Source: Vibrio taketomensis
Lineage (GTDB): Bacteria; Pseudomonadota; Gammaproteobacteria; Enterobacterales; Vibrionaceae
Length of the DNA stretch: 64,000 nt
Assembly (NCBI RefSeq): GCF_009938165.1
Contig: NZ_AP019650.1
Coordinates: forward strand, 1 to 64,000
Reading direction: 5' to 3'
Both the position numbers and the translations under genes were made by a program. The notes below the pieces were generated by a model, which worked only from the letters and a program-made list of their open reading frames with translations, searched no databases and was not told the DNA's origin. Below are positions 1,259 to 46,778 of this stretch, piece after piece; positions within the stretch are counted from its first letter, which is position 1, and the number at the start of each line of letters is the position of its first letter.

Positions 1259-3229
1259 ATGAGTTCAGAAGAAAAAATACTGATCAAAGCGCCTCGCAGT
1301 CACAAGGATGGACATTTATTTGAAGTGTCAGAAACCGCAGTTGATTGGATAGAACAATACCAGCACTTCAAAGGCGTGACTAAAAGCATAGTTGAGCTTC
1401 TGAATTTAATTTCACTACGTGGTTTTAGTAGTAAAGATGGTTTGGTATCCACAACTGAGCTAATCGAAGCAACAGACGGTCAAATTACGCGAGCGGCAAT
1501 TCAACAGCGTTTACGTGCAGCGGTAACAGTCGGACTCTTTGAGCAAATTCCTGTGCGATTTGAAGAAGGGCTTGCTGGTAAAACAATGCTGCATACGTTT
1601 GTGAATCCTAGCAAACTGATTTCTGCATTAGGCGCAACGAGTTTAGTGACCGAAAGTGTTAAACAGAGTGAGAAAAAGAAACGTTCTAAAGCACTTGCTC
1701 AGACACAAGTGAATAAGCGTTTATTGAATGAATATGGCTTGAATACGCCACCAGCGATGAAAGATGAAGCGGACCAATTTGTCGTTTCACCAACCAACTG
1801 GGCCGGGATTATCGACCAAGCACTTGCTCCACCACGCACCCGTAAAAACTATCAAAAATCGATGGTATCGATCTCTGGCACTCGCGCAGTGATCGAAACA
1901 CGATCATCAAAAAATATCATGACAGTTGACGATCTGATGACCTTGTTTGCCCTGTTTACTTTAACGGTGCAATACCATGATCATCATCAGTACCAGTATC
2001 AACTGGATGCCAAGCATGTACCGAACAAAACGCCACTCTACATCACGGATATTTTGTCCCTGCGTGGTAAGAAAGACAGTGGCCCTGCACGCGATTCTAT
2101 CCGTGACAGTATTGATCGAATTGAATTCACTGATTTCCAGTTGCATGAGCTCACCGGACGCTGGTTAAGCGAAAACATGCCAGAAGGCTTTAAGAGCGAT
2201 CGTTTCCGTTTCCTAGCCCGAACCATTACTGCGTCCGAAGAAGCGCCTACAGAGGGCTCTGACGGCGAAATTCGCATTAAACCGAACCTATACATCCTGG
2301 TTTGGGAACCGTCGTTCTATGAAGAGCTGTTAACTCGCGATTATTTCTTCTTGTTTCCACCGGAAATTCTGAAGCAACATACGTTGGTGTTCCAGCTATA
2401 CAGCTATTTCCGTAGCCGTATGTCTCGTCGCCATACTGACGTCATGTTGCTCAGCGAACTCAACCAAAAACTTGCGCGTAATATCGATTGGCGTCGCTTC
2501 TCAATGGATCTGATCCGTGAATTAAAACGATTATCGGATGGCAAAGGGTCTGACGATCTTTTCGTGGTGAATCTGTGGGGTTACCATCTGACGATTTCGG
2601 CGATCAGTGAGAAAGATAAGATCAAAGATTATCAAGTCGATATTAAGTGTGATGTGGAAGAAGTCCTCCGTTATTCACGCGCTCGTACCACCAATGCAGG
2701 CAAACGTAACATGGCACCAACCCTGCCTAATCCGTTGCGAAACGAAATGGTGAGTCGCCAGCAGTTGGATGAGCTATCACAAATCATTGATGGTGAATTT
2801 GAACCTATTCAACGCAAAGAACGTTCTCCTAAAGGCCACTTAGGGCGTCGAGTGAAACAGCGTAAGCACTTGGTGGAAATCAACGCTGATGAAATCACTA
2901 TTACTTTATCGAAATACACCTCTGAAGAGGCCCTAGAGCGCAGTATCGCAGCATTGGCTGCAATGACAGGACACTCTCAAGGCTCAATCCGCGAGGAGTG
3001 TATTGAGTTGATTGATAAGCTTGATTGGTTGCGTGTGGGTGAAGATAAAATACCATACGAAACACTGAGTAAAATGGTTGAGCTGTACAACAGCCAAAGT
3101 GACAATAAGCATCTGTCGATTGAGCGTCTGATCGCAGGCCTCGCGGTGCGACGCAAGGTGTGCAAGCAGGTAATGGATGGTCATCTTGATGAAACAGTGT
3201 TCCGTGCATTAGATGAAGTAGCTGTGTAA
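1259..3229 (+). CDS. rctB: Chromosome II replication initiator RctB
   Basis: At 656 residues this is the usual length for RctB, the initiator specific to Vibrionaceae second chromosomes. It binds methylated 12-mers and unmethylated 39-mers, melts the origin and loads the replicative helicase. The N-terminal portion includes a helix-turn-helix-like stretch around residues 68-95 (TELIEATDGQITRAAIQQRL). The start at MSSEEKIL fits the family, though the ribosome binding site is weak, with only GGA in CCGGATCTAAA before the ATG. It stands alone between the origin and a structured intergenic region. Expression is probably self-limited through the 29-mer-like site at 1215-1237. Identification rests on recognised sequence and on the origin beside it. 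Confidence 0.97.
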   Translation: MSSEEKILIKAPRSHKDGHLFEVSETAVDWIEQYQHFKGVTKSIVELLNLISLRGFSSKDGLVSTTELIEATDGQITRAAIQQRLRAAVTVGLFEQIPVRFEEGLAGKTMLHTFVNPSKLISALGATSLVTESVKQSEKKKRSKALAQTQVNKRLLNEYGLNTPPAMKDEADQFVVSPTNWAGIIDQALAPPRTRKNYQKSMVSISGTRAVIETRSSKNIMTVDDLMTLFALFTLTVQYHDHHQYQYQLDAKHVPNKTPLYITDILSLRGKKDSGPARDSIRDSIDRIEFTDFQLHELTGRWLSENMPEGFKSDRFRFLARTITASEEAPTEGSDGEIRIKPNLYILVWEPSFYEELLTRDYFFLFPPEILKQHTLVFQLYSYFRSRMSRRHTDVMLLSELNQKLARNIDWRRFSMDLIRELKRLSDGKGSDDLFVVNLWGYHLTISAISEKDKIKDYQVDIKCDVEEVLRYSRARTTNAGKRNMAPTLPNPLRNEMVSRQQLDELSQIIDGEFEPIQRKERSPKGHLGRRVKQRKHLVEINADEITITLSKYTSEEALERSIAALAAMTGHSQGSIREECIELIDKLDWLRVGEDKIPYETLSKMVELYNSQSDNKHLSIERLIAGLAVRRKVCKQVMDGHLDETVFRALDEVAV

Positions 3230-24849: not shown

Positions 24850-25224
24850 ATGAGCCTAAAGCAGGAACTTCAACAACTTCACAATCGTCTTGATACTGCC
24901 CAGCGTAAACTGGATGGGGCAAAAACACGTGGCGATCAAGAGCTGATCTCTAAATTTACCGATCAAGTGGAAGAGTTTTCAAAGAAGATTAACTCATTAC
25001 GTGGTAAGCAAGATTACAATCTGAATAAAGAGCGTAAGAGCCTACTTGATATGCCATTCTCGCGTGAAATCACCAAAGAAGAGCAAGCAGATTTGGGCAA
25101 ACTTAAGAAATCAGTTCGCGGTTTGGTGCTTGTTCACCCGATGACTAAAATGGGTAAACAACTTCGCTTAGAAGTAATGACAGGTTTGCGCCTAAAAATT
25201 CTAATAGCGAGTTCGATTTTTTGA
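24850..25224 (+). CDS. yibL: YibL-family ribosome-associated protein with altered C terminus
   Basis: The body (EITKEEQADLGKLKKSVRGLVLVHPMT) is clearly YibL, a small protein found with ribosomes in E. coli. After EVMTG the sequence runs into an unrelated hydrophobic tail (LRLKILIASSIF). One extra T at 25185-25187 would restore GFAPK, close to the usual ending, and a second at 25199-25200 would give GFAPKNF and a stop at about 118 residues. The printed end therefore probably reflects one or two single-base losses. The start is at MSLKQEL. Confidence 0.85.
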   Translation: MSLKQELQQLHNRLDTAQRKLDGAKTRGDQELISKFTDQVEEFSKKINSLRGKQDYNLNKERKSLLDMPFSREITKEEQADLGKLKKSVRGLVLVHPMTKMGKQLRLEVMTGLRLKILIASSIF

Positions 25225-25946
25225 ATTCGCAGGGCAAACGATAGAACTATCGTTTTGCCATCAGTCCATCCCATACTTCCATTATTACCCTTACTATTGT
25301 TCATACTGTGCGAATAATTGTTGTGCATAGCATTAGTAATATGCATGGCATCCTTGCGTTTGTGCACATCCAACTTCTTAAAGATTTTATATACGTGTGA
25401 TTTGACCGTACTTTCTGATAAGAAAAGTGAGTTCGCGATTTGCTTGTTGGATTTACCGGAAGCCACATGATCGAGTATTTGTCTTTCTCGTGATGTTAAG
25501 CTGCGGTACAACTGACAGCGTTCCAAATTTGGATTGCGTCTCAGCATCACCAGGCCTTCTAAGCATTTACGTGGTAGCCACAAGCCACCGTTTAATACGT
25601 ACTCGACACTCTTATACAGATGCTCTATCGGTGCGTTGTTCAGTAAAACACCTTTGAGAGATGGCCAATAGACATATTCACACTGCATAGACTCTGGCGG
25701 CATGTTGTAAATAAAAACGTCTAATTTGAGCAAGTCGAAATTTGGAATGGCTTGGTTTAGCGCTAAGGTTTCAAGCTGCTCAAAGTCGATCAGTACTAAA
25801 TCGACACAAGAAAGAGATGAAGTTGGCGTGAGTTGGGAAGGTGCCGTGACATCAATACTGATGTCTAATTTTTCGGTGAGTTGCTGTTCCATCAAACTGG
25901 TTTGCAATGTTTTGTCCGACAAGATGATGACGTACTTATTTAACAT
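25134..25946 (-). CDS. CsgD/VpsT-like LuxR family regulator, C terminus uncertain
   Basis: A biofilm-type regulator with an atypical receiver domain (residues 1-140) and a LuxR helix-turn-helix (LTSRERQILDHVASGKSNKQIANSLFLSESTVKSHVYKIFKKL, residues 150-192). The site where VpsT carries its c-di-GMP motif W[FLM][TS]R reads WLPR (123-126), so nucleotide binding is doubtful. It is divergent from the amyloid locus and probably controls it. The printed frame overlaps yibL by 91 bases. A one-base shift near 25311-25322 would end the protein as LFAQYEQ at about 25294, a normal length. Confidence 0.85.
   Translation of the reverse strand: MLNKYVIILSDKTLQTSLMEQQLTEKLDISIDVTAPSQLTPTSSLSCVDLVLIDFEQLETLALNQAIPNFDLLKLDVFIYNMPPESMQCEYVYWPSLKGVLLNNAPIEHLYKSVEYVLNGGLWLPRKCLEGLVMLRRNPNLERCQLYRSLTSRERQILDHVASGKSNKQIANSLFLSESTVKSHVYKIFKKLDVHKRKDAMHITNAMHNNYSHSMNNSKGNNGSMGWTDGKTIVLSFALRIQKIELAIRIFRRKPVITSKRSCLPILVIG
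25232..25260. terminator. Hairpin between convergent yibL and luxR genes
   Basis: GGCAAACGATAG pairs with CTATCGTTTTGCC around AA, leaving one bulged base. If both flanking genes end where their families predict (about 25204 and 25294), this hairpin sits neatly between them as a shared terminator. Confidence 0.5.
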
Positions 25947-26485
25947 TATCCACTGCCCCTATTGCTGTTTTCTTTGCCTAGTCCCCGTGCTGACTAGGTT
26001 TTAGTTAGCACTAAGTATATTCAAGAAATCTAAGTCGGTAGGGCATTTCATGATATTTACTTACTTCTTTATCAATAAAGATTCATCCATTGGTTTAGTC
26101 TCAGGCAAATCATTCTCAATATGTTTTAAACGCTACGGCGTTAACTGACTGAGTTTTGATGGATATTGTATGTTTATTCACTATGTGGTCGGACTTCTAT
26201 CATTTCCTTAGGCTGAACTCATTCTTAAAAGTATGACGCGATTTATCCTACGAATCTGCACTCAATCTTCATACTTTGCTCATCCAATTCCAATCTGATG
26301 CTCGTAAATTGCTGTTTAATAAAACGATGGATTATTAGAGGGTATGCGCCATTCCTGCATATCAACCTGATCCTCAAAACTCGTCTCACAAGTGAGACGT
26401 GCGCTTTTGGCTGCCTACCTATACTCGAGTTGCTCAAGGGCATAAACAACCAAATCAGACATGGATACACAACGGAGTGAAGGTT
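25947..26485. other. Intergenic control region between luxR and the amyloid locus
   Basis: This 540-base AT-rich gap separates two divergent transcription units and holds no convincing gene. The clearest feature is a perfect palindrome at 26382-26399. The size suggests long leaders or several operators, as is usual for biofilm matrix genes. Confidence 0.6.
26382..26399. promoter_or_regulatory. Palindromic candidate operator upstream of the amyloid locus
   Basis: CGTCTCAC-AA-GTGAGACG is a perfect 8-base inverted repeat located 87-104 bases before the first start codon of the amyloid operon. It could bind the divergent LuxR regulator, or form a leader hairpin. It lacks a T run, so it is not a terminator. 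Confidence 0.45.
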
Positions 26486-27469
26486 ATGAATCTTAAAAAA
26501 ACGGGTGTAGCAATCGCAATGGCAGCGATGATGTTTAGTGGCGCAGCACTAGCCGGTGGTCATGGTGGTGGCGGCGGCGCTGATTACTTAAGTCATAATG
26601 GTAACGGGCCAGGCAACGACAACAATCATGTTGTGACAACATCGGGCGGTGGTAACGACAACAATCGTTCAAACGACGGCAACGATGGCAATATGATTAC
26701 GAACACCGGCGCTGGTAATGATAACAACCGCTCAAACGATGGCCACGACAACAACTCATTGTCTTATACGTCTGGCGGCGGTAACGATCACAATAAATCG
26801 TACAGCAAAACAAATAACGGTGATGATGGCAACACCATCAAGAACAGCAACAACACCAACAATGGTGATGATAACAACCGAATCCGCACCAATGATGGTA
26901 ACGATAACAACAAATCGTACAACCTAAGCAACAATGGTGATGATCACAACAAGACCTACACCAAAACAAACAACGGTGATGACAACAACCGCATTCGTAC
27001 TAACGACGGCGACGACAACAACCGTCTAACTATGAAGGGCAGCAATAATACCGATAACGGTAATGATGGCAATTCATGGAAAGACAGCGCGAATACTGAC
27101 AACTCTAAATCATGGAAAGACAGTGCAAACACTGACAATTCAAGATCTTGGAAAAACAGCAACAACAAAATTGACCAAAGCCACACTCTAAACTTTGAAG
27201 TAGATATGGTGGTTGCGAGCTCAGATCTGAAAGGATACATCTCAAGCTCAGATGTTGAGTACGGTGAGTCTGCAGGTAGCGGTATGCGTGGGCCTCGTGG
27301 TAAAGGTGGCTGCAATACATGTCAAGGTGCTGGTGTGAGTGTTAGAAATACCAACAACATGACTGGCTTTAACAATACTTCGGGTATTACCACAGTGAGC
27401 CAATCTGCGGGTGCAAACTCTTTAATTCAACAGTCTGTTGTCACCAACGCAACGGTTAAAACTAACTAA
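26486..27469 (+). CDS. Secreted Asn/Asp/Gly repeat protein, candidate Fap-like amyloid subunit
   Basis: A 327-residue exported protein. A signal peptide (MNLKKTGVAIAMAAMMFSGAALA) precedes a region of about 13 G[NDH]D[NHG]N motifs in NNGDDNNRIRTNDG-type repeats, then two DSANTDNS[KR]SWK repeats, a CxxC pair (Cys276, Cys279) and a C-terminal motif AGANSLIQQSVVTNATVK. Repeats plus a C-terminal CxxC recall the Pseudomonas amyloid subunits FapB/FapC. The Asp/Asn spacing could also bind calcium. The start is set at 26486, where GGAGTGAAGG precedes the ATG; the frame from 26399 is an artefact. It heads a four-gene operon. Confidence 0.85.
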   Translation: MNLKKTGVAIAMAAMMFSGAALAGGHGGGGGADYLSHNGNGPGNDNNHVVTTSGGGNDNNRSNDGNDGNMITNTGAGNDNNRSNDGHDNNSLSYTSGGGNDHNKSYSKTNNGDDGNTIKNSNNTNNGDDNNRIRTNDGNDNNKSYNLSNNGDDHNKTYTKTNNGDDNNRIRTNDGDDNNRLTMKGSNNTDNGNDGNSWKDSANTDNSKSWKDSANTDNSRSWKNSNNKIDQSHTLNFEVDMVVASSDLKGYISSSDVEYGESAGSGMRGPRGKGGCNTCQGAGVSVRNTNNMTGFNNTSGITTVSQSAGANSLIQQSVVTNATVKTN

Positions 27470-27483
27470 TTCTGGAGAATGTC

Positions 27484-27834
27484 ATGCGCTTAGCACTATT
27501 GGCAATAAGCAGCGTATTGGTTGTCAACGCTTATGCTGAAGATTTGGTGCTGGCAGACGACTACGAGCTATCCATAGATAGTATGGATAGCTCGCGAGGT
27601 GGACAGTACGTATTAGATGTTGATGAATACAATGTTGATATTGACAGTATCAGTGCCAGCTCAGAGATTAATGGCGCAAGTTTTGGGAATCGAGCGATCA
27701 ATACCGTTAACGGTAATAATCGTATCGGCTCTGGCGCTTTTAGCTCTGCAACTGGTGTGAACAATGTAATTCAAAATACGGGTAATAACGTACTGATTCA
27801 AAACTCAACGGTCGTTAACCTGACACTGAAATGA
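27484..27834 (+). CDS. Small secreted protein of the Fap-like locus
   Basis: A 116-residue exported protein with signal MRLALLAISSVLVVNAYA. The mature part is Asp/Ser rich, then Asn/Gly rich (NTVNGNNRIGSG, ATGVNNVIQNTGNN), and ends in TGNNVLIQNSTVVNLTLK. That ending aligns with the end of the preceding protein (NxLIQxSxVxNxTxK). The low-complexity Asn/Gly/Val pattern is typical of beta-solenoid or amyloid proteins. It is 14 bases downstream of the first gene and one base from the peptidase gene. A minor subunit or nucleator is plausible. Confidence 0.82.
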   Translation: MRLALLAISSVLVVNAYAEDLVLADDYELSIDSMDSSRGGQYVLDVDEYNVDIDSISASSEINGASFGNRAINTVNGNNRIGSGAFSSATGVNNVIQNTGNNVLIQNSTVVNLTLK

Positions 27835-27835
27835 T

Positions 27836-28513
27836 ATGGTTTTTTGGCGAATCTTTGCTTCGGGGATGCTGATTTTATCAGCATCTTCTCATGCTTTAAC
27901 TTACATGCCTCATCGTGGGTCCTTTAATGTTCCGGTGAAGAGTTACAAAGAAATGCTGTTTGGCGACGTAGTTCGTCAGCAGTATGACTTTAGTTGCGGC
28001 TCTGCTGCTCTAGCGTCACTGTTAACTTATCACTACGACTACCCATCCGAAGAAGACGTGATTTTTCAAACAATGTTCGATCGAGGTGATCAAGAGACGA
28101 TCAAAAAAAGCGGTTTTTCGCTGCTCGATATGAAGAACTATTTGGAGATGAAAGGTTACGACGCTGATGGATTTAGAATGCCACTCACAAAGCTCCAAGA
28201 GTTAGGTGTTCCAGGTATCACGTTGGTGAACTTTGACGGTTACATGCACTTTGTGGTGATTAAGGGTATGAATAGTCACTCGGTCATTCTAGGCGATCCT
28301 TCACGAGGTACTATCCAAATGAAGTTCGCAGAGTTTGAGCGCTACTATTCAGGCATCGTGCTGTTGATTCGCACTCACGCCAACATTGCCAGAAATAGTT
28401 ACATCTCAGACGACAACTATACACTTTATGCCCCCGCTCCTGTAGATTCGGGCGTATCTCGAAACTCACTGGGGGTATTTAGTATTACGCTACCCGAACG
28501 TGGGGAGTTTTAA
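27836..28513 (+). CDS. C39-type cysteine peptidase (FapD-like)
   Basis: A 225-residue exported protein with signal MVFWRIFASGMLILSASSHA. The C39 papain-like catalytic residues are all visible: Cys54 in QQYDFSCGSAALASLL, His138 in YMHFVVIKG and Asp154 in ILGDPSRG. C39 domains usually cleave leader peptides in bacteriocin exporters. A free-standing periplasmic version is a hallmark of Fap operons (FapD), where it processes components of the export system. It sits between the secreted subunits and a further secreted protein. Confidence 0.88.
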   Translation: MVFWRIFASGMLILSASSHALTYMPHRGSFNVPVKSYKEMLFGDVVRQQYDFSCGSAALASLLTYHYDYPSEEDVIFQTMFDRGDQETIKKSGFSLLDMKNYLEMKGYDADGFRMPLTKLQELGVPGITLVNFDGYMHFVVIKGMNSHSVILGDPSRGTIQMKFAEFERYYSGIVLLIRTHANIARNSYISDDNYTLYAPAPVDSGVSRNSLGVFSITLPERGEF

Positions 28514-28514
28514 A

Positions 28515-29237
28515 ATGTTTAGACAAATATGGTTGGTAAGCGCAGTTTGCGCGTGTCTAGCTGCGCCCACTGCTAGTGCATCTTACCAACTAGATAGTCT
28601 TGAGCCACTCGATGATGGAGAGCTTTCTTCACTTCGAGCGGGTTTCTTAGGTGATGACTTTATGGTCAACATCGGGTTAGATATTGCGACTTCGATTAAC
28701 GGCGAAACCTTATTCAACAATAGGATTGCCAATCTGTTCTTCCAGAACGGACAACTCATCGCATCTCAGCCTGAAGTGATACCGGTAACGACTGTGGTGC
28801 AAGTTGGGAGCAACAATTCCGTTGATCTACCAGCAGCACAGCAGGTAAATCCGGTAGTAACTCGGTCACCAACGACAGTTGATACTACGGCTGCACCAAC
28901 GATTGTAGTATCACCGAATGGTTCTGCGCCTCCTGCTGTTGTTATGGCGCAACCAAGTGTCGAGACTCAACCCGTTGCTTCAGGAGCGGCGAACTCGGAA
29001 ACCTCTGTTGAAGAATCTATACCAGCCGAACAACCGGTGATAACCGTCACTCAAGTGACAGGCCCTGTATCTGGTGTAAACCAGTCTTCGATTAACCGAG
29101 TCATCCAAAACTCTTTAAACAACACAGTCATTAACTTTGAAACCGTAGTTAATATTGATGCGCAAGTGAACGGTGCTTTAAAACGCTTAGAAAGCAGAAA
29201 TAGAGTACAGCAAGCTTTGCAATTTAATTTTAATTAG
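28515..29237 (+). CDS. Secreted protein of the Fap-like locus (FapE-like position)
   Basis: A 240-residue exported protein with a signal peptide (WLVSAVCACLAAPTASAS). It opens LDSLEPLDDGELSSLRAGFLGDDF, a short motif seen in many exported fibre proteins. A Pro/Thr/Val-rich linker leads to a C-terminal segment VNQSSINRVIQNSLNNTVINFETVVNI, related to the endings of the two upstream subunits. The start at 28515 is preceded by GGGGAG. The gene overlaps no other and ends the operon before a terminator. A minor subunit or fibre-associated role is inferred. Confidence 0.8.
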   Translation: MFRQIWLVSAVCACLAAPTASASYQLDSLEPLDDGELSSLRAGFLGDDFMVNIGLDIATSINGETLFNNRIANLFFQNGQLIASQPEVIPVTTVVQVGSNNSVDLPAAQQVNPVVTRSPTTVDTTAAPTIVVSPNGSAPPAVVMAQPSVETQPVASGAANSETSVEESIPAEQPVITVTQVTGPVSGVNQSSINRVIQNSLNNTVINFETVVNIDAQVNGALKRLESRNRVQQALQFNFN

Positions 29238-29256
29238 TGGACATCAATTTAAAAAC

Positions 29257-29283
29257 AAGCCAGCAATTCATGCTGGCTTTCTT
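29257..29283 (+). terminator. Terminator of the amyloid operon
   Basis: AAGCCAGCA pairs with TGCTGGCTT around ATTCA, followed by TTCTT. Confidence 0.8.
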
Positions 29284-29365
29284 CCGTTATTGACATTCGT
29301 TATCGATGTTCACTACCGATGATAGCGATAGCGTGTGTGTCAGTGCATGAAGATTACCAAATGGC

Positions 29366-29396
29366 AAAAACCGCCTACTTGAGGCGGTTTTGGTTT
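29366..29396. terminator. Bidirectional terminator before the barrel gene
   Basis: AAAACCGCCT pairs with AGGCGGTTTT. On the minus strand it is followed by TTTTTGCC, just downstream of the outer-membrane barrel gene. Confidence 0.82.
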
Positions 29397-29412
29397 GATT
29401 GTGCAGAGATAT

Positions 29413-30417
29413 TTATAGTGAAACTGGTATGCGCACATTGAGTTGGAAATCTGGCGTATCTTCAGTGAGGCCTGCTTGAGCACTAATGTTAATGGCTGTT
29501 GTTGGTGATAGCGCGTAGTTAATCCCAAAATTCAATGAATCAAGCTGCAGCATTTTTGCATCGCTATCGGTAACACCATTGATTTTACTCTTCAAAATGG
29601 TTTGATGGCTAAAACCAATCGAGAGCGATAAATCGCGGTTGATCGCAAAGCCCATACCACCACCAAGAGAGATAGTATCACCAAGATCGATCTCTTGGTT
29701 AGTATCACTGATATCAAAATCATTCTCAAAGTTGTAGATATAAGACAGACTTGCATAGAGTACGGCAGGATCTGTCGGGTAAATCATTGAAATCCCGGGT
29801 TCAACACTCCAAAAACCTGAACCAGTGGGTGCTTCTTCTAGAACATTCGTCAATTCGTCACTGGCAATTTCGTATGGGGATTTACCGGTATCTGATTTGA
29901 CTCTCAAGCTACCTACCCAATAAGGTGCGGTATCAAAGTTGAATTGATGTCTTATTGCGAATTCAACGTCACCAATCCCTCCACCACTGACATCACGGTT
30001 AAAATCTCTATTATTACCTGTACCTAATTCACGACCGGATACCTGATCATCTCGGTAAACGAACGGAACGCGAACCTCGATCTCTGTAGCGTTAGTGATA
30101 CCGTAACGACCGGTTAAACCAAGTGTCATGGTGGTACGGTCGGCGTCGGCGACTTCAATTCGACCAACCAACAACGCAGGTAGCACCGTATAGCCAATCA
30201 CGTTGACCGTGTTGGATGAGTTTTGCGAGTAGTTTAGAGATGCCTCGATACCGAACTTTCCTTTTGGGGTTAGTACCCCAGGTCGATCAATAACATCAGA
30301 AACGGTTTGAGCTCGTCTTGGTTGCGAGGCTTCTTCTGCTGTTTGTTCTTCTGTTTCTGCATAGAGTGGAGATGCGAACAAAACTAGTGGTAAAGCGTAT
30401 AAGAGAGGTTTTGCCAT
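29413..30417 (-). CDS. Outer-membrane beta-barrel protein (FapF-like / MetA-pathway family)
   Basis: A 334-residue exported protein with signal MAKPLLYALPLVLFASPLYA, then a Glu/Gln/Ala-rich helical lead (ETEEQTAEEASQPRRA), then about twelve alternating amphipathic strands ending in aromatic/hydrophobic FQLNVRIPVSL, as outer-membrane barrels do. It resembles the phenol MetA-pathway family to which FapF belongs. FapF exports Fap fibres and carries a helical plug before its barrel. It is convergent with, and adjacent to, the putative Fap-like operon. If unrelated, it would be a general porin-like protein. Confidence 0.8.
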   Translation of the reverse strand: MAKPLLYALPLVLFASPLYAETEEQTAEEASQPRRAQTVSDVIDRPGVLTPKGKFGIEASLNYSQNSSNTVNVIGYTVLPALLVGRIEVADADRTTMTLGLTGRYGITNATEIEVRVPFVYRDDQVSGRELGTGNNRDFNRDVSGGGIGDVEFAIRHQFNFDTAPYWVGSLRVKSDTGKSPYEIASDELTNVLEEAPTGSGFWSVEPGISMIYPTDPAVLYASLSYIYNFENDFDISDTNQEIDLGDTISLGGGMGFAINRDLSLSIGFSHQTILKSKINGVTDSDAKMLQLDSLNFGINYALSPTTAINISAQAGLTEDTPDFQLNVRIPVSL

Positions 30418-40915: not shown

Positions 40916-40963
40916 CCATACCGATTAGTTTGTGTGACCAGCACGATTTTAAAGATTGGAGTG

Positions 40964-40995
40964 ACTCTTCCCCACAGAGCTATGTGGGGAAGAGT
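40964..40995. other. Perfect 13-base hairpin between prpC and acnD
   Basis: ACTCTTCCCCACA (40964-40976) and TGTGGGGAAGAGT (40983-40995) are exact inverted copies around a GAGCTA loop, starting 49 bases after the prpC stop and ending 22 bases before the acnD start. There is no T run, so the structure may protect or process the operon mRNA rather than end it. Confidence 0.7.
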
Positions 40996-41017
40996 GAAAT
41001 TACTTGGAAGTAAGCCC

Positions 41018-43609
41018 ATGACAATAAATACTCAATACCGAAAACCACTTGCAGGCACTTCGCTAGATTATTTTGATGCTCGTGAAGCTGTGGATGCTAT
41101 CTCCCCTAACGCCTACAGTAAGCTACCTTACACATCGCGTGTACTGGCCGAGCAGTTAGTACGTCGCTGCGACCCTTCTATGTTGGAAGCGAGTCTTAAG
41201 CAACTTATTGAGCGCAAACGCGATCTCGATTTCCCTTGGTATCCGGCGCGTGTCGTTTGCCATGACATTCTTGGCCAAACAGCTTTGGTGGATTTGGCGG
41301 GTCTGCGTGATGCGATTGCGGAACAAAGTGGCGATCCTGCAAAAGTGAATCCTGTGGTTGAAACACAGTTGATTGTGGATCACTCTTTGGCGGTTGAGCA
41401 CGGCGGATTTGACCCAGACGCATTTGAGAAAAATCGCGCGATTGAAGATCGCCGCAACGAGGACCGCTTTCATTTTATTGAATGGTGTAAAACCGCCTTT
41501 GAAAACGTCAGCGTGATCCCCGCAGGCAACGGCATTATGCACCAAATCAATCTTGAGAAAATGTCACCCGTGGTGCAAGCCAAACAAGGTATCGCTTATC
41601 CAGATACGTGTGTGGGTACCGACAGCCATACGCCACACGTTGATGCGTTGGGTGTAATTGCGATTGGCGTTGGCGGGCTTGAAGCTGAAACCGTGATGCT
41701 CGGCCGACCATCGATGATGCGTTTACCAGATATCGTCGGCGTGAAGCTAACCGGTAAACGTCAACCGGGGATTACCGCGACCGATATTGTATTGGCGATC
41801 ACCGAGTTTCTGCGCAATGAGCGTGTGGTTTCAAGCTACCTTGAGTTCTTTGGTGAAGGAGCTCGAGACCTCACTATTGGCGATCGCGCAACCATCTCCA
41901 ATATGACGCCAGAATATGGTGCGACTGCCGGTATGTTCTACATTGATGAGCAGACCATCAACTACTTAAAACTGACTGGTCGAGACGAAGAGCAAGTGGC
42001 ACTTGTCGAAAACTACGCCAAGCAGACCGGTCTTTGGGCAGATCAGTTAGATAGCGCTGAATATGAACGTGTGCTTGAGTTTGATCTCTCTAGCGTGACG
42101 CGCAATATGGCAGGCCCTTCAAACCCACATCGCCGTTTACCAACTTCTGAACTTGCGCAGCGCGGGATTGCCGTTCGCCAGCAAGAGCATCAAGAAGATG
42201 GAAAGCTACCGGATGGGGCTGTGATTATTGCGGCGATTACTTCATGCACTAACACCAGTAACCCGCGCAACGTGGTGGCAGCAGGTTTGGTAGCGAAAAA
42301 AGCCAACCAACTTGGTTTAGTGCGCAAGCCTTGGGTTAAGTCCTCGTTTGCTCCGGGCTCTAAAGTGGCCAAGCTATATCTTGAAGAAGCGGGTTTGCTA
42401 AGTGAAATGGAAAAACTTGGCTTTGGGATTGTTGCTTATGCCTGTACTACCTGCAACGGCATGAGTGGTGCGTTGGACCCTGAAATTCAGCAAGAGATTA
42501 TTGAACGTGATCTCTACTCAACAGCGGTGTTATCGGGTAACCGTAACTTTGATGGCCGTATTCACCCTTATGCCAAACAGGCATTTCTTGCATCACCGCC
42601 GCTGGTGGTCGCTTATGCGCTAGCGGGTACGATTCGGTTTGATATTGAGCGTGATGCGCTGGGCACTAACGCGCAAGGTGAGCCGATTTATCTGAATGAC
42701 CTCTGGCCTAGTGATGAGGAAATCGATGCGGTGGTGGGCAAATACGTCAAACCGGAGCAGTTTAACCAAGTCTATATTCAGATGTTTAAACTCGATGACT
42801 CTGAGCGCAGTCAAAGCCCACTCTATGATTGGCGTGAAATGAGTACTTACATACGTCGCCCGCCTTATTGGCAGGGAGCGTTGGCAGGTGAGCGTTCACT
42901 TGCAGGTATGCGACCACTGGCGATACTGGGCGATAACATTACGACTGATCACCTTTCGCCTTCTAATGCGATTTTGCCAAGTAGCGCCGCCGGTGAATAC
43001 CTAGCGAAAATGGGACTACCGGAAGAAGACTTTAACTCCTACGCCACTCACCGCGGCGACCATCTAACCGCGCAACGTGCCACCTTTGCCAATCCGAAAC
43101 TGTTTAATGAAATGGTGCTAGAAAATGGTCAAGTCGTACAAGGTTCGCTTGCCCGTGTCGAGCCTGAGGGTAAAGTCACCCGCATGTGGGAAGCGATTGA
43201 AACTTATATGAATCGCAAGCAGCCGCTAATTGTGGTGGCGGGTGCTGATTATGGTCAAGGTTCATCCCGTGACTGGGCAGCAAAAGGTGTGCGCCTGGCC
43301 GGAGTTGAAGCGATTGTGGCCGAAGGGTTTGAACGTATTCACCGTACCAACTTAGTTGGCATGGGGGTATTGCCGCTGCAATTTAAGTCTGGAATCGATC
43401 GCAACACGCTGCAATTAGATGGCACCGAACTGTATGACGTTATCGGGGAGATTGCACCTGGTACCGATTTGGCTTTAGTGATCACTCGTGCGAACGGTGA
43501 GAAGTTAGATGTACCAGTCACGTGCCGTCTTGATACCGCAGATGAAGTCAGCGTGTACCAAGCGGGTGGTGTGTTGCAGCGTTTTGCCCAAGATTTTCTT
43601 GCTCAGTAG
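41018..43609 (+). CDS. acnD: Fe/S-dependent 2-methylcitrate dehydratase AcnD
   Basis: AcnD dehydrates 2-methylcitrate to 2-methylaconitate and needs PrpF to complete the step. The 863-residue protein is aconitase-like. Cluster ligands lie in AAITSCTNTSNPRN and YACTTCNGMSGALDPE, the substrate motif is CVGTDSHTPHVDALG, and the swivel domain follows (GADYGQGSSRDWAAKG). The start is MTINTQYRKPL (41018). The open frame upstream to 40934 runs through the hairpin at 40964-40995 and lacks family similarity. It is followed ten bases later by prpF. Confidence 0.95.
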   Translation: MTINTQYRKPLAGTSLDYFDAREAVDAISPNAYSKLPYTSRVLAEQLVRRCDPSMLEASLKQLIERKRDLDFPWYPARVVCHDILGQTALVDLAGLRDAIAEQSGDPAKVNPVVETQLIVDHSLAVEHGGFDPDAFEKNRAIEDRRNEDRFHFIEWCKTAFENVSVIPAGNGIMHQINLEKMSPVVQAKQGIAYPDTCVGTDSHTPHVDALGVIAIGVGGLEAETVMLGRPSMMRLPDIVGVKLTGKRQPGITATDIVLAITEFLRNERVVSSYLEFFGEGARDLTIGDRATISNMTPEYGATAGMFYIDEQTINYLKLTGRDEEQVALVENYAKQTGLWADQLDSAEYERVLEFDLSSVTRNMAGPSNPHRRLPTSELAQRGIAVRQQEHQEDGKLPDGAVIIAAITSCTNTSNPRNVVAAGLVAKKANQLGLVRKPWVKSSFAPGSKVAKLYLEEAGLLSEMEKLGFGIVAYACTTCNGMSGALDPEIQQEIIERDLYSTAVLSGNRNFDGRIHPYAKQAFLASPPLVVAYALAGTIRFDIERDALGTNAQGEPIYLNDLWPSDEEIDAVVGKYVKPEQFNQVYIQMFKLDDSERSQSPLYDWREMSTYIRRPPYWQGALAGERSLAGMRPLAILGDNITTDHLSPSNAILPSSAAGEYLAKMGLPEEDFNSYATHRGDHLTAQRATFANPKLFNEMVLENGQVVQGSLARVEPEGKVTRMWEAIETYMNRKQPLIVVAGADYGQGSSRDWAAKGVRLAGVEAIVAEGFERIHRTNLVGMGVLPLQFKSGIDRNTLQLDGTELYDVIGEIAPGTDLALVITRANGEKLDVPVTCRLDTADEVSVYQAGGVLQRFAQDFLAQ

Positions 43610-43619
43610 GAAGGTGACT

Positions 43620-44804
43620 ATGAATCGAGTGAGACCTCAATTACGTATCCCAGCGACCTATATTCGAGGTGGCACCAGTAAAGGTGTGTTCTTTAGCCTT
43701 AATGATCTACCGCCAGAGGCGCAAGTGGCCGGTGATGCGCGTGATAAGTTGCTAATGCGTGTTATTGGAAGCCCAGATCCTTACGCCAAACAAATTGATG
43801 GTATGGGCGGCGCGACCTCAAGTACCAGTAAAACGGTGATTGTTTCCGCCAGTAGCAAGCCAGACCATGACGTGGACTATCTGTTCGGACAAGTATCCAT
43901 CGACAATCCCTTTGTTGACTGGAGTGGCAACTGCGGCAATCTTTCCGCCGCAGTTGGTCCATTTGCGATTCAAGCGGGTTTAGTCAGTGCTGAGCGATTG
44001 CCGCGCAACGGTGTTGCTGAGGTAAGAGTTTGGCAAGCCAATATCAATAAAACCATTGTGGTACATGTGCCGATGGTAGATGGGCGAGTGCAAGAAACCG
44101 GTGATTTTGCACTCGATGGCGTGACGTTTCCTGCCGCTGAAATTCAAGTGGATTTTATCGATCCAGCCGCGATAGACAGTCGTCTATTTCCGACTGGGAA
44201 TTTAATTGATGATCTCGAAGTTCCGGGCGTTGGCACATTTAACGCCACTTTAATTACCGCTGGCATCCCGACTATTTTTATTGATGCTGAGTCTCTGGGT
44301 TATCAAGGTACTGAGCTACAGGATGACATTAATAACGATGAAGAAGCACTGGTGAGATTTGAGACCATTCGAGCTTATGGTGCGCTCAAAATGGGCTTAA
44401 TCAAGGAGATTGATGAGGCGAAAAGTCGCCAACATACGCCAAAAGTTGCTTTTGTATCGGGAGCGAAAACTTGGGTTTCATCGAGTGGCAAAACCATAAC
44501 CGCTGATGAAATTGATCTCCATGTGCGAGCGCTATCAATGGGCAAGTTGCACCACGCGATGATGGGAACCGCTGCGGTGGCGATTGCTTCTGCAGCCAGT
44601 GTACCCGGAACGTTAGTCAACTTAGCTGCAGGTGGCGGAGAAAAGCAGAGCGTGATCTTTGGGCACCCTTCAGGAACGTTGAAAGTAGGCGCCGAAGCAA
44701 GAGTGAATGGCAGTGAGTGGTCAATTAATAAAGTGTCGATGAGCCGCAGTGCACGAGTCTTAATGGAAGGATTCGTTCGAGTTCCCTTCGATGTGTTTTC
44801 TTAA
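43620..44804 (+). CDS. prpF: 2-methylaconitate cis-trans isomerase PrpF
   Basis: PrpF isomerises the AcnD product so that aconitase can hydrate it. The 394-residue protein begins with IPATYIRGGTSKGVFF, the family signature, and has the paired motif VDWSGNCGNLSAAVGPFAI. The start (43620) is preceded by GGAAGGTGACT; the frame from 43509 inside acnD is not used. Presence next to acnD identifies the AcnD/PrpF variant of the pathway rather than the PrpD variant. Confidence 0.95.
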   Translation: MNRVRPQLRIPATYIRGGTSKGVFFSLNDLPPEAQVAGDARDKLLMRVIGSPDPYAKQIDGMGGATSSTSKTVIVSASSKPDHDVDYLFGQVSIDNPFVDWSGNCGNLSAAVGPFAIQAGLVSAERLPRNGVAEVRVWQANINKTIVVHVPMVDGRVQETGDFALDGVTFPAAEIQVDFIDPAAIDSRLFPTGNLIDDLEVPGVGTFNATLITAGIPTIFIDAESLGYQGTELQDDINNDEEALVRFETIRAYGALKMGLIKEIDEAKSRQHTPKVAFVSGAKTWVSSSGKTITADEIDLHVRALSMGKLHHAMMGTAAVAIASAASVPGTLVNLAAGGGEKQSVIFGHPSGTLKVGAEARVNGSEWSINKVSMSRSARVLMEGFVRVPFDVFS

Positions 44805-44900
44805 GCAGCGCTAAGAACAAAAGAAGTACGATAAAAATTCAGGTATTTCGCAGCGTATGAGTGGTCGTGCGTGATGCCAAGACATACTGGAGGAAGCAAT

Positions 44901-46778
44901 ATGTCTGCATATCAAGAGCAATACCAATGGGCACAAGAGCAGCCTGAACAGTTTTGGCACCAACAAGCAAAGCAAATTGATTGGTTTGAATTTCCCAAAA
45001 CAATATTAGCCAATGATGAAAATGGCATTGAGCGTTGGTTCCCGGATGGTGTGCTTAATACTTGCTGGTTAGCCCTCGATTATCACTGTGAACAAGGACG
45101 AGGTGAACAAACCGCACTGATTTATGATTCACCGGTGACAGGCATAAAGCAACGTTACAGCTATCAACAGATGCGCGAGCAAGTAGCCACCATTGCAGGT
45201 ATGCTGGCAGGAGAAGGGGTTACCAAAGGCGACCGTGTGGTGATTTATATGCCAATGATTCCCGAAGCAGCAATGGCAATGTTGGCCTGCGCACGTTTAG
45301 GTGCGATTCATTCGGTGGTGTTTGGTGGTTTTGCTCCCAATGAGCTTGCCGTTCGAATTGAAGATGCCGAGCCGAAAGTGGTGATGACGGCATCGTGCGG
45401 CATTGAAGTGAACAAAGTGATTCCATACAAGCCGATGGTGGATAAAGCGATAATGGACAGTCGTTGGAAGCCAGAGAAAGTGTTTGTTTTTCAGCGTCCT
45501 CAATGCGAAGCCGAACTGAACCAAGAGCGCGATGTTGATTGGCAACAGGCCTACCAGTTTGCGCTTCCACATGCGTGTGTCCCTGTATTGGCAACCGATC
45601 CACTTTATATTCTTTACACTTCCGGTACGACCGGAAAGCCAAAAGGCGTTGTGCGTGATAACGGTGGTCATGCCGTCGCGATGAAGTACTCAATGAATAC
45701 CATTTACGATATGCCACAAGACGGGGTGTTTTGGGCGGCATCCGATGTGGGTTGGGTGGTTGGGCATTCTTATATTGTCTACGCACCGCTCATTCATGGC
45801 TGTACTACGGTGCTTTATGAGGGCAAGCCAGTACGTACTCCCGATCCGGGTGCATTTTGGCGAGTGTGTGAGGAGTATGGCGTTGACGCGTTATTCTCGG
45901 CACCTACGGCATTTCGTGCGATTAAGAAAGAAGACCCACAAGGGGAGTTCCTTAAGCAGTTTGATCTTTCAAAGCTCAGAACCATCTTTATGGCCGGTGA
46001 ACGCTTAGATCCGCCAACTTTAGAGTGGGTGCAAGAACATACCTGCAAACCCGTCATTGATCATTGGTGGCAAACTGAAACGGGCTGGGCAATTTGTGGT
46101 AACCCAACCGGATTGGAAATGATGGCGGTCAAAGCTGGCTCATCTACCAAGCCTATTCCGGGTTATCAGGTTGAGATTCTGGACGAATTAGGCGAGCCAA
46201 CCGCGGCTAATCAACAAGGTTATATTGCTTTAAAACGTCCTTTACCACCGAGTTGCTTACCTACGGTCTGGCGCAACCATGACCGTTTTGAGAGCGGCTA
46301 TTTAAGCCAATTCCCTGGGTATTATGTGTCAGGCGATGGTGGTTATCTCGACGAGGAGGGGTACTTGTTTATCATGGGGCGCATTGATGATGTGATTAAT
46401 GTCGCTGGTCACCGCCTTTCAACTGGTGAAATGGAAGAAATTGTCGGTGGGCACCCAGCCATTGCCGAATGTGCAGTGGTGGGCATTCATGATGAACTAA
46501 AAGGTCAGTTGCCACTGGGTTTTGTGGTGCTTAAAGATGGCATAAGCATTGACTCATTAACACTGGAAGGTGAGCTAGTGAGTAAAGTTCGTGATTCCAT
46601 CGGTGCCGTGGCGTGTTTTAAGCATGCGCTGGTGGTCGAGCGTTTACCAAAAACCCGCTCGGGTAAAATATTGCGTCGCACCATTCGTCAGATTGCCGAT
46701 GGTGAGGCGTACACCGTGCCATCCACTATTGATGACCCAACCAGCATTAGTGAGATTGAGCGAGCGTTAAGGAGTTAA
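44901..46778 (+). CDS. prpE: Propionyl-CoA synthetase PrpE
   Basis: PrpE activates propionate to propionyl-CoA with ATP and CoA. It is a 625-residue acyl-CoA synthetase with the AMP-binding motif YTSGTTGKPKGVV, the Trp-rich WWQTETGWAICGNP and the C-terminal catalytic lysine in PKTRSGKILRR, which is a target of acetylation control in this family. The start is MSAYQEQYQW with GGAGGAAGC before it. It ends the operon before a terminator. Confidence 0.95.
   Translation: MSAYQEQYQWAQEQPEQFWHQQAKQIDWFEFPKTILANDENGIERWFPDGVLNTCWLALDYHCEQGRGEQTALIYDSPVTGIKQRYSYQQMREQVATIAGMLAGEGVTKGDRVVIYMPMIPEAAMAMLACARLGAIHSVVFGGFAPNELAVRIEDAEPKVVMTASCGIEVNKVIPYKPMVDKAIMDSRWKPEKVFVFQRPQCEAELNQERDVDWQQAYQFALPHACVPVLATDPLYILYTSGTTGKPKGVVRDNGGHAVAMKYSMNTIYDMPQDGVFWAASDVGWVVGHSYIVYAPLIHGCTTVLYEGKPVRTPDPGAFWRVCEEYGVDALFSAPTAFRAIKKEDPQGEFLKQFDLSKLRTIFMAGERLDPPTLEWVQEHTCKPVIDHWWQTETGWAICGNPTGLEMMAVKAGSSTKPIPGYQVEILDELGEPTAANQQGYIALKRPLPPSCLPTVWRNHDRFESGYLSQFPGYYVSGDGGYLDEEGYLFIMGRIDDVINVAGHRLSTGEMEEIVGGHPAIAECAVVGIHDELKGQLPLGFVVLKDGISIDSLTLEGELVSKVRDSIGAVACFKHALVVERLPKTRSGKILRRTIRQIADGEAYTVPSTIDDPTSISEIERALRS

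Follow-up and report, generated by a model that had tools for sequence, protein, structure and literature searches.

The stretch of DNA analysed here (the window) covers 64,000 nucleotides of Vibrio taketomensis (contig NZ_AP019650.1, assembly GCF_009938165.1, forward strand, positions 1 to 64,000) and contains a locus of six genes, designated R, X, Y, D, Z, and F, that is related to the Fap and Fil systems. Genes X, Y, D, and Z are spaced 1-14 bp apart, F is convergent with them, and R is divergent. An earlier note on this DNA had described this gene set, with three exported proteins, a C39 peptidase, a convergent barrel, and a divergent regulator, and the description is confirmed, as are the full triad of the peptidase and the VpsT/CsgD-like type of the regulator. 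The features of the locus are:

25134..25946, minus strand: R, VpsT/CsgD-like LuxR-type regulator (PF21155, GerE, and VpsT 3kln matches)
26383..26398, no strand: palindrome GTCTCA-N4-TGAGAC, candidate VpsR box 5' of the X operon (genome-wide pattern count)
26486..27469, plus strand: X, exported protein with an Asn/Asp/Gly-rich array and a conserved C-terminal region and motif
27484..27834, plus strand: Y, small exported protein with an RGG leader and a C-terminal VIQNTGNNVLIQN motif
27595..27603, plus strand: Arg38-Gly39-Gly40 of Y, predicted C39 processing site (leader pattern)
27836..28513, plus strand: D, Sec-exported free-standing C39 peptidase, FapD-related (PF03412, FapD model, tree)
28515..29237, plus strand: Z, exported protein with a leader ending in Arg-Ala-Gly
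28635..28643, plus strand: Arg-Ala-Gly of Z, predicted C39 processing site (leader pattern)
29257..29279, plus strand: terminator-like hairpin 3' of Z (-14.1 kcal/mol, z -4.69)
29367..29391, minus strand: terminator-like hairpin 3' of F (-17 kcal/mol for a 51-nt stretch, z -4.26)
29413..30417, minus strand: F, FapF-type outer-membrane barrel without a periplasmic coiled coil (FapF 5o67, NCBIfam FapF, tree)

Relationship to the Fap and Fil systems

The best match of F in the PDB is FapF (5o67, E 1.9e-43), and the highest-scoring NCBIfam models for the peptidase and the barrel are those of Fap (D: FapD 131.5 bits, FilB 95.1; F: FapF 189.9 bits, FilC 74.6), although all of these scores are far under the cut-offs. 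X and Y matched no NCBIfam model at E up to 1, including FapB and FapC, and X matched no Pfam family either. A true Vibrio Fap locus (L030, genome G071) served as the positive control, and its FapC reached 310 bits, above the cut-off of 195; its FapB (51 bits), FapD (264, cut-off 330), FapE (29.5), and FapF (387) were, like D and F, under their cut-offs. The FapC of this control is 1277 residues long, and an open reading frame (ORF) resembling a sigma54-type activator by eye lies 3' of its fapF on the same strand, slightly overlapping the fapF end. The FapE model matched neither the Z of the window nor that of L034, and weakly matched the Z orthologue of L031 (E 0.0077). Among 148 Vibrio genomes, 29 matched the FapF model, one at 373 bits and 28 (including that of the window) at 133-189 bits.

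Trees were built for D (70 proteins) and F (68 proteins), with 16 Fap rows, 5 Fil rows, and 49 D and 47 F rows of a third lineage (Vibrionaceae plus a wider set). The rows had been picked by Y matches and by their score against FapD or FilB and are not a random sample. In both trees, Fap, Fil, and the third lineage are each separated by a starred branch. The D and F of the window fall outside the FapD/FapF and FilB/FilC clades, and the Vibrionaceae are nested inside the wider set of the third lineage. One genome (G159) contains a Fap-type D and a third-lineage Y approximately 90 kb apart on the same contig. The locus belongs to a widespread third lineage beside Fap and Fil. The earlier label "Fap-like" holds for the kinship of D and F, and searches with the Fap families did return FapD and FapF as best models; it does not hold in the strict sense, since X and Y match neither FapB nor FapC and the trees separate D and F from the Fap clade. 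Plain Fap membership was rejected on the FapB/FapC model control together with the trees. The difference from Fap in repeat type and arrangement that the note had pointed out was borne out. The Vibrio Fap for which Dueholm et al. (2013; PMC3792158) give 16 FapC repeats apparently resembles L030, not the locus of the window, and no earlier description of the third lineage was found in open-licence PMC papers.

Peptidase D and the leaders of Y and Z

D matches the C39 peptidase family PF03412 at 76.6 bits and C39 structure 6mpz at E 7.6e-11, lacks ABC domains, and has invariant residues Q48, C54, H138, and D154. Directly after their signal peptides, Y and Z carry a bacteriocin-type C39 leader ending in Arg-Gly-Gly (Arg-Ala-Gly in the Z of the window). 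A hydrophobic residue at -12 combined with L/M at -7 and R[GA] was found in 78 of 81 Y proteins (background, 103/2287 ORFs), and the stricter form ending in R[GA]G in 62 of 81 (background, 14/2287). For Z, the -12/-7/-4 pattern with R[GA]G occurred in 62/72 proteins and in 7/2287 background ORFs. When Z was anchored on R[GA]G only, hydrophobic residues were present at -12 in 64/72, at -7 in 71/72, and at -4 in 67/72, while positions -11, -10, -9, -8, -6, and -5 were hydrophobic in at most 4/72. These are the leader positions (-12, -7, and -4) bound by the groove of LahT150, and ComA recognises L(-12)...E(-8)L(-7) (PMC6363468).

At the place of the RGG/RAG site of Z, the ORFs in the FapE position carry RG[RK] in 14 of 15 Fap loci, plus L030. 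According to Rouse et al. (2017; PMC5557850), secretion requires FapD activity, FapE is the sole Fap protein found fully N-terminally processed by mass spectrometry, and a canonical C39 sequence was not found in Fap proteins, leaving the target of FapD open at that time. The RGG leaders of Y and Z, and the RG[RK] of FapE, are therefore predicted cleavage targets of the periplasmic C39 peptidase, and D appears to cut such tags off Y and Z.

Barrel F

The match of F to the NCBIfam FapF model begins at profile position 102 of 420, and only some 20-25 residues separate the signal peptide of the window's F from the first barrel-aligned residues. With start sites estimated, F proteins have a median length of 331 aa in Vibrionaceae, compared with 429 aa for Fap and 431 aa for the wider set, some members of which (L137, L190) also appear by eye to lack the coiled coil. 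Rouse et al. describe a coiled coil in all FapF homologues; the barrel of the Vibrionaceae has none.

Candidate subunits X and Y

The C-terminal tails of X (GITTVSQSAGANSLIQQSVVTN in the window) and Y (GVNNVIQNTGNNVLIQNSTVVN) share homology, with an HHalign probability of 97, and each protein has a single copy of the short C-terminal motif. Compared with 15 harvested Fap repeats, the tails gave HHalign probabilities of 24 (X) and 62 (Y), with maxima of 4.6 and 12.2 among 30 decoys; homology with the Fap repeats is suggestive only and was not accepted. No leader was seen by eye in X, and the Pfam curlin family had no match in X, Y, or Z. A Pfam ETX_MTX2 match of Y (residues 51-100, 17.2 bits against a cut-off of 22) was taken as chance.

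The length of X ranges from 156 to 735 aa across Vibrionaceae. CxxC occurs in the X of the window and of four close relatives (5 of 68 X proteins), and 21 others have adjacent Cys-Cys. From this variation, the tail appears to be the conserved core and the Asn/Asp/Gly array a variable spacer. The array was rejected as the defining unit of a fibre, as the X proteins of L053 and L055 (164 and 156 aa) have little of it, and CxxC was rejected as a Fap-like hallmark on its count. Both features, on which the earlier reading had relied, are thus lineage-specific; the short C-terminal motif of X and Y and the RGG leaders of Y and Z make up the conserved core.

Relatives of Y are numerous (of 7056 candidates, 2256 have an E value no higher than 1e-3), and many of the 120 listed (P0017-P0136) are named "carbon storage regulator" in databases. 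Neither the signal peptide nor the sequence of these proteins supports that label, which is apparently a propagated mis-annotation.

Distribution of the gene set

All six genes are present in 24 of 27 other non-Fap Vibrio loci that were fetched (with D broken into two ORFs in L056), and R and X are divergently oriented in 22 of these 24. The incomplete loci reach a contig edge (L046), consist of F alone (L054), or consist of F alone with an internal stop (L057). The lone F of L054 (genome G015) lies beside ORFs that by eye resemble transposases, which suggests that the cluster was split by mobile elements.

A search of named genomes with Y only yielded 173 loci, of which 80 were kept; these share several genomes with the fetched set, so the counts are not additive. 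The loci found by Y come from Vibrio, Thaumasiovibrio, Photobacterium, Lysobacter, Cupriavidus (including C. necator, L125 and L127), Azohydromonas, Dechloromonas, Methylobacter, Thioalkalivibrio, metagenome-assembled genomes, and others, and the gene set is not confined to Vibrio. Going downstream from Y, D is reached within 2 kb in 79 of these 80 loci (L082 ends first); F is present in 77, an X-type tail in 67, and Z in 67 by hidden Markov model or 71 with a positional rule. In broad samples that share some genomes, Y was found in 13/369 genomes of the class and 14/398 of the phylum (weakest E 4.6e-7); FapD-model matches of at least 196 bits occurred in 15/369 genomes of the class.

Of the 24 loci from named Vibrio genomes, 23 have R and the last one stops at a contig edge. 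R was found in the fetched flank of 0/18 Photobacterium loci, and the 37 loci outside Vibrionaceae gave a single weak LuxR-type match (L122). In Photobacterium clusters (L081-L100), Y and D are separated by an additional X-like gene, and F lies upstream on the opposite strand. In L048-L050, L052, L053, and L055, an exported barrel-like protein of approximately 185 aa, ending like YNDIGGPDINYFGISATYHWF, is encoded beside R.

Regulator R and the upstream palindrome

R matches PF21155 (39.7 bits, over the cut-off) and GerE (73.9 bits), scores 103.6 bits against the CsgD equivalog (cut-off 250, not reached), and aligns over both domains with VpsT (3kln, E 1.5e-22). PF21155 occurs at three places in the genome, R being one of three VpsT-like receiver proteins. 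The cyclic di-GMP motif of VpsT is W[FLM][TS]R. The corresponding motif of R is WLPR in the window and W-x-P-R in 24/24 orthologues, with which R may or may not bind cyclic di-GMP. The R of the window has 270 aa, compared with 205-235 aa in 23 of 24 orthologues; its extra C-terminal tail (25134-25224), which looks like the result of a lost stop codon, runs over the 3' end of yibL (24850-25224), a gene convergent with R.

The palindrome GTCTCACAAGTGAGAC lies at 26383-26398, 103 bp upstream of X, and at 103-104 bp with 0-1 mismatches in four close relatives. The pattern GTCTCA-N4-TGAGAC has exactly two copies in the 4.3-Mb genome, the second being 118 bp upstream of the gene for the closer VpsT orthologue (C2, WLSR). 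Allowing one mismatch raises the count to 8 places in the genome, versus 4 for a control pattern; among the 8 are a copy 93 bp upstream of vpsR (identified by PDB VpsR 7v2b, 727 bits) and a copy approximately 113 bp upstream of a GGDEF (diguanylate cyclase) gene (L219 1501-1516; G000 C1:2744687), possibly a further member of the same regulon. Among 43 Vibrionaceae upstream regions, 26 contain the palindrome with at most two mismatches at a 4-base gap (300 shuffles: mean 0.47, maximum 3), a statistic in which related loci are not independent and kinship is uncorrected. In Photobacterium the palindrome, where found, is mostly ~250-290 bp before the first X-like gene. A published VpsR site upstream of craA reads TTTCACAATTGAGA (PMC6890996). 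Since copies of the palindrome precede the vpsT orthologue, vpsR, and the diguanylate cyclase gene, the candidate box makes control of the X operon by VpsR likely in the clade of the window and a conjecture elsewhere, and R may be a local partner. The palindrome and its conservation are computed results, whereas its binder and the targets of R are inferred.

Neighbouring genes

The gene for the chromosome 2 replication initiator, rctB, is located at 1259-3229, at a distance of ~22 kb. At 40934-46778, genes for an aconitase, PrpF, and an acyl-CoA synthetase follow one another, consistent with a propionate (methylcitrate) cluster.

Interpretation

From the computed gene homologies, lineage, and conserved leaders, we infer the cleavage, the secretion route, and the formation of fibres or amyloid. 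The locus is likely to encode a fibre secretion system of the Fap/Fil kind that forms a third branch of its own, and it probably exports surface matrix fibres; that its product is an amyloid is slightly favoured. X, Y, and Z would exit the cytoplasm via Sec, and D would cleave Y and Z in the periplasm after their Arg-Gly-Gly leaders (Arg-Ala-Gly in the Z of the window). The processed Y and Z, together with X, would then cross the barrel F, and a matrix fibre would be assembled outside through the Gly/Gln/Asn motif shared by the C termini of X and Y, with the array of X serving as a flexible, exposed, variable spacer. VpsR, together with the divergent VpsT-like R, would couple expression to the biofilm state. 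A more specific proposal, held tentatively and somewhat short of even likelihood, is that of a widespread third class, with fibre maturation in the periplasm, in which the double-glycine leaders behind Sec signals act as pro-sequences that block polymerisation of the assembly proteins Y and Z until C39 removal at the barrel, with coiled-coil-free export of a matrix fibre controlled by VpsR and cyclic di-GMP in Vibrionaceae.

Several observations weigh against this interpretation. The likeness of the X and Y tails to Fap repeats is weak, and similar regular expressions had been used to choose the segments compared. The coiled coil that was found essential for Fap secretion is missing from F. 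Position -4 of Y is hydrophobic in just 16/64 proteins with R[GA]G, and 17/81 Y proteins lack R[GA]G, mostly having RGK, RGR, or RGQ, so a strict double-glycine rule is not universal. R carries WLPR and not the motif of VpsT. Of the 8 places with 0-1 mismatch to the palindrome, 4 have no evident link to biofilm (before a DUF3135 gene, before a gene that by eye is tryptophan-synthase-like, inside an ORF, and between genes), and in 17/43 upstream regions, a set of mutually dependent loci owing to their kinship, the palindrome does no better than chance (p above 0.1).

Against a non-amyloid surface layer or adhesive coat, in which X would be a disordered charged brush held at the surface by its C-terminal motif and Y and Z would be anchors, stand the amyloid-secreting type of the machinery and, weakly, the Gly, Gln, Asn pattern of amyloid repeats in the motif shared by X and Y. 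Such a coat would account for the N/D/G-rich array and variable length of X, for the single short motif per protein, and for the absence of a Pfam curlin match, and is unlikely but worth weighing. It is less probable still that this is a Fap locus proper. The order X-Y-D-Z with a separate F does recall B-C-D-E with a detached F, as in 4/16 genera of Dueholm et al. (2013), FapD and FapF are the best models, and Z has the FapE site; yet X and Y have no match to FapB/FapC where the control locus of true Fap type (L030) does, starred branches set D and F apart from the Fap proteins, and G159 carries both kinds on one contig. Finally, bacteriocin-type leaders could mean that D processes and F exports small secreted peptides (a bacteriocin or signal), which would make the fibre reading wrong. 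This is very improbable: the leaders are behind Sec signals, D has no ABC domains, the barrel is FapF-type, X and Z are large proteins, and the gene maps, inspected by eye and not searched for such genes, showed no evident gene for immunity or modification.

Judged from its sequence, the locus is a widespread new variant of the Fap/Fil kind with a concrete predicted processing rule. It makes the question of the FapD target directly testable, as a sister lineage has near-canonical C39 sequences in two exported proteins, and it supplies natural FapF-type barrels without a coiled coil. Three lineages that are treated as one by the FapD and FapF models are separated, a candidate matrix-protein family is recovered from under the name "carbon storage regulator", and the VpsR regulon of Vibrio gains a new candidate member.

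Comparison with known systems

As in the Fap system (fapABCDEF; Pseudomonas and some Vibrio), the locus encodes a Sec-exported C39 peptidase, a FapE-like protein directly after it, a FapF-type barrel, and exported proteins with a Gly/Asn/Gln motif. It differs in that X and Y of the window match neither FapB nor FapC, D and F form a separate clade, the Y profile matched nothing in 15 Fap loci, FapE has RG[RK] where Z has RGG/RAG, and the F of the window has no coiled coil. The Fil system (FilB and FilC; Acinetobacter and others), named a putative pilus system in NCBIfam, likewise has a C39 peptidase followed by a barrel; however, D and F score lower against it (FilB 95 and FilC 75 bits) and belong to a separate clade, and a Z-type RGG protein was not found near FilB in 5/5 Fil loci, by pattern among same-strand ORFs only. 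Curli (csg) resembles the locus in having a CsgD/VpsT-type regulator adjoining exported fibre candidates, but X, Y, and Z do not match Pfam curlin and the secretion barrel is of the FapF type. R is similar to VpsT of Vibrio cholerae in its alignment with 3kln over both domains, and departs from it in having WLPR where 3kln has WLTR and the closer VpsT orthologue of the genome (C2) has WLSR. D belongs to the same peptidase family as the double-glycine C39 peptidases of ABC exporters (LahT, ComA, and PCAT1), with the same leader positions of -12, -7, and -4, whereas D is Sec-exported and free-standing, without ABC domains, and its predicted substrates carry Sec signals of their own.
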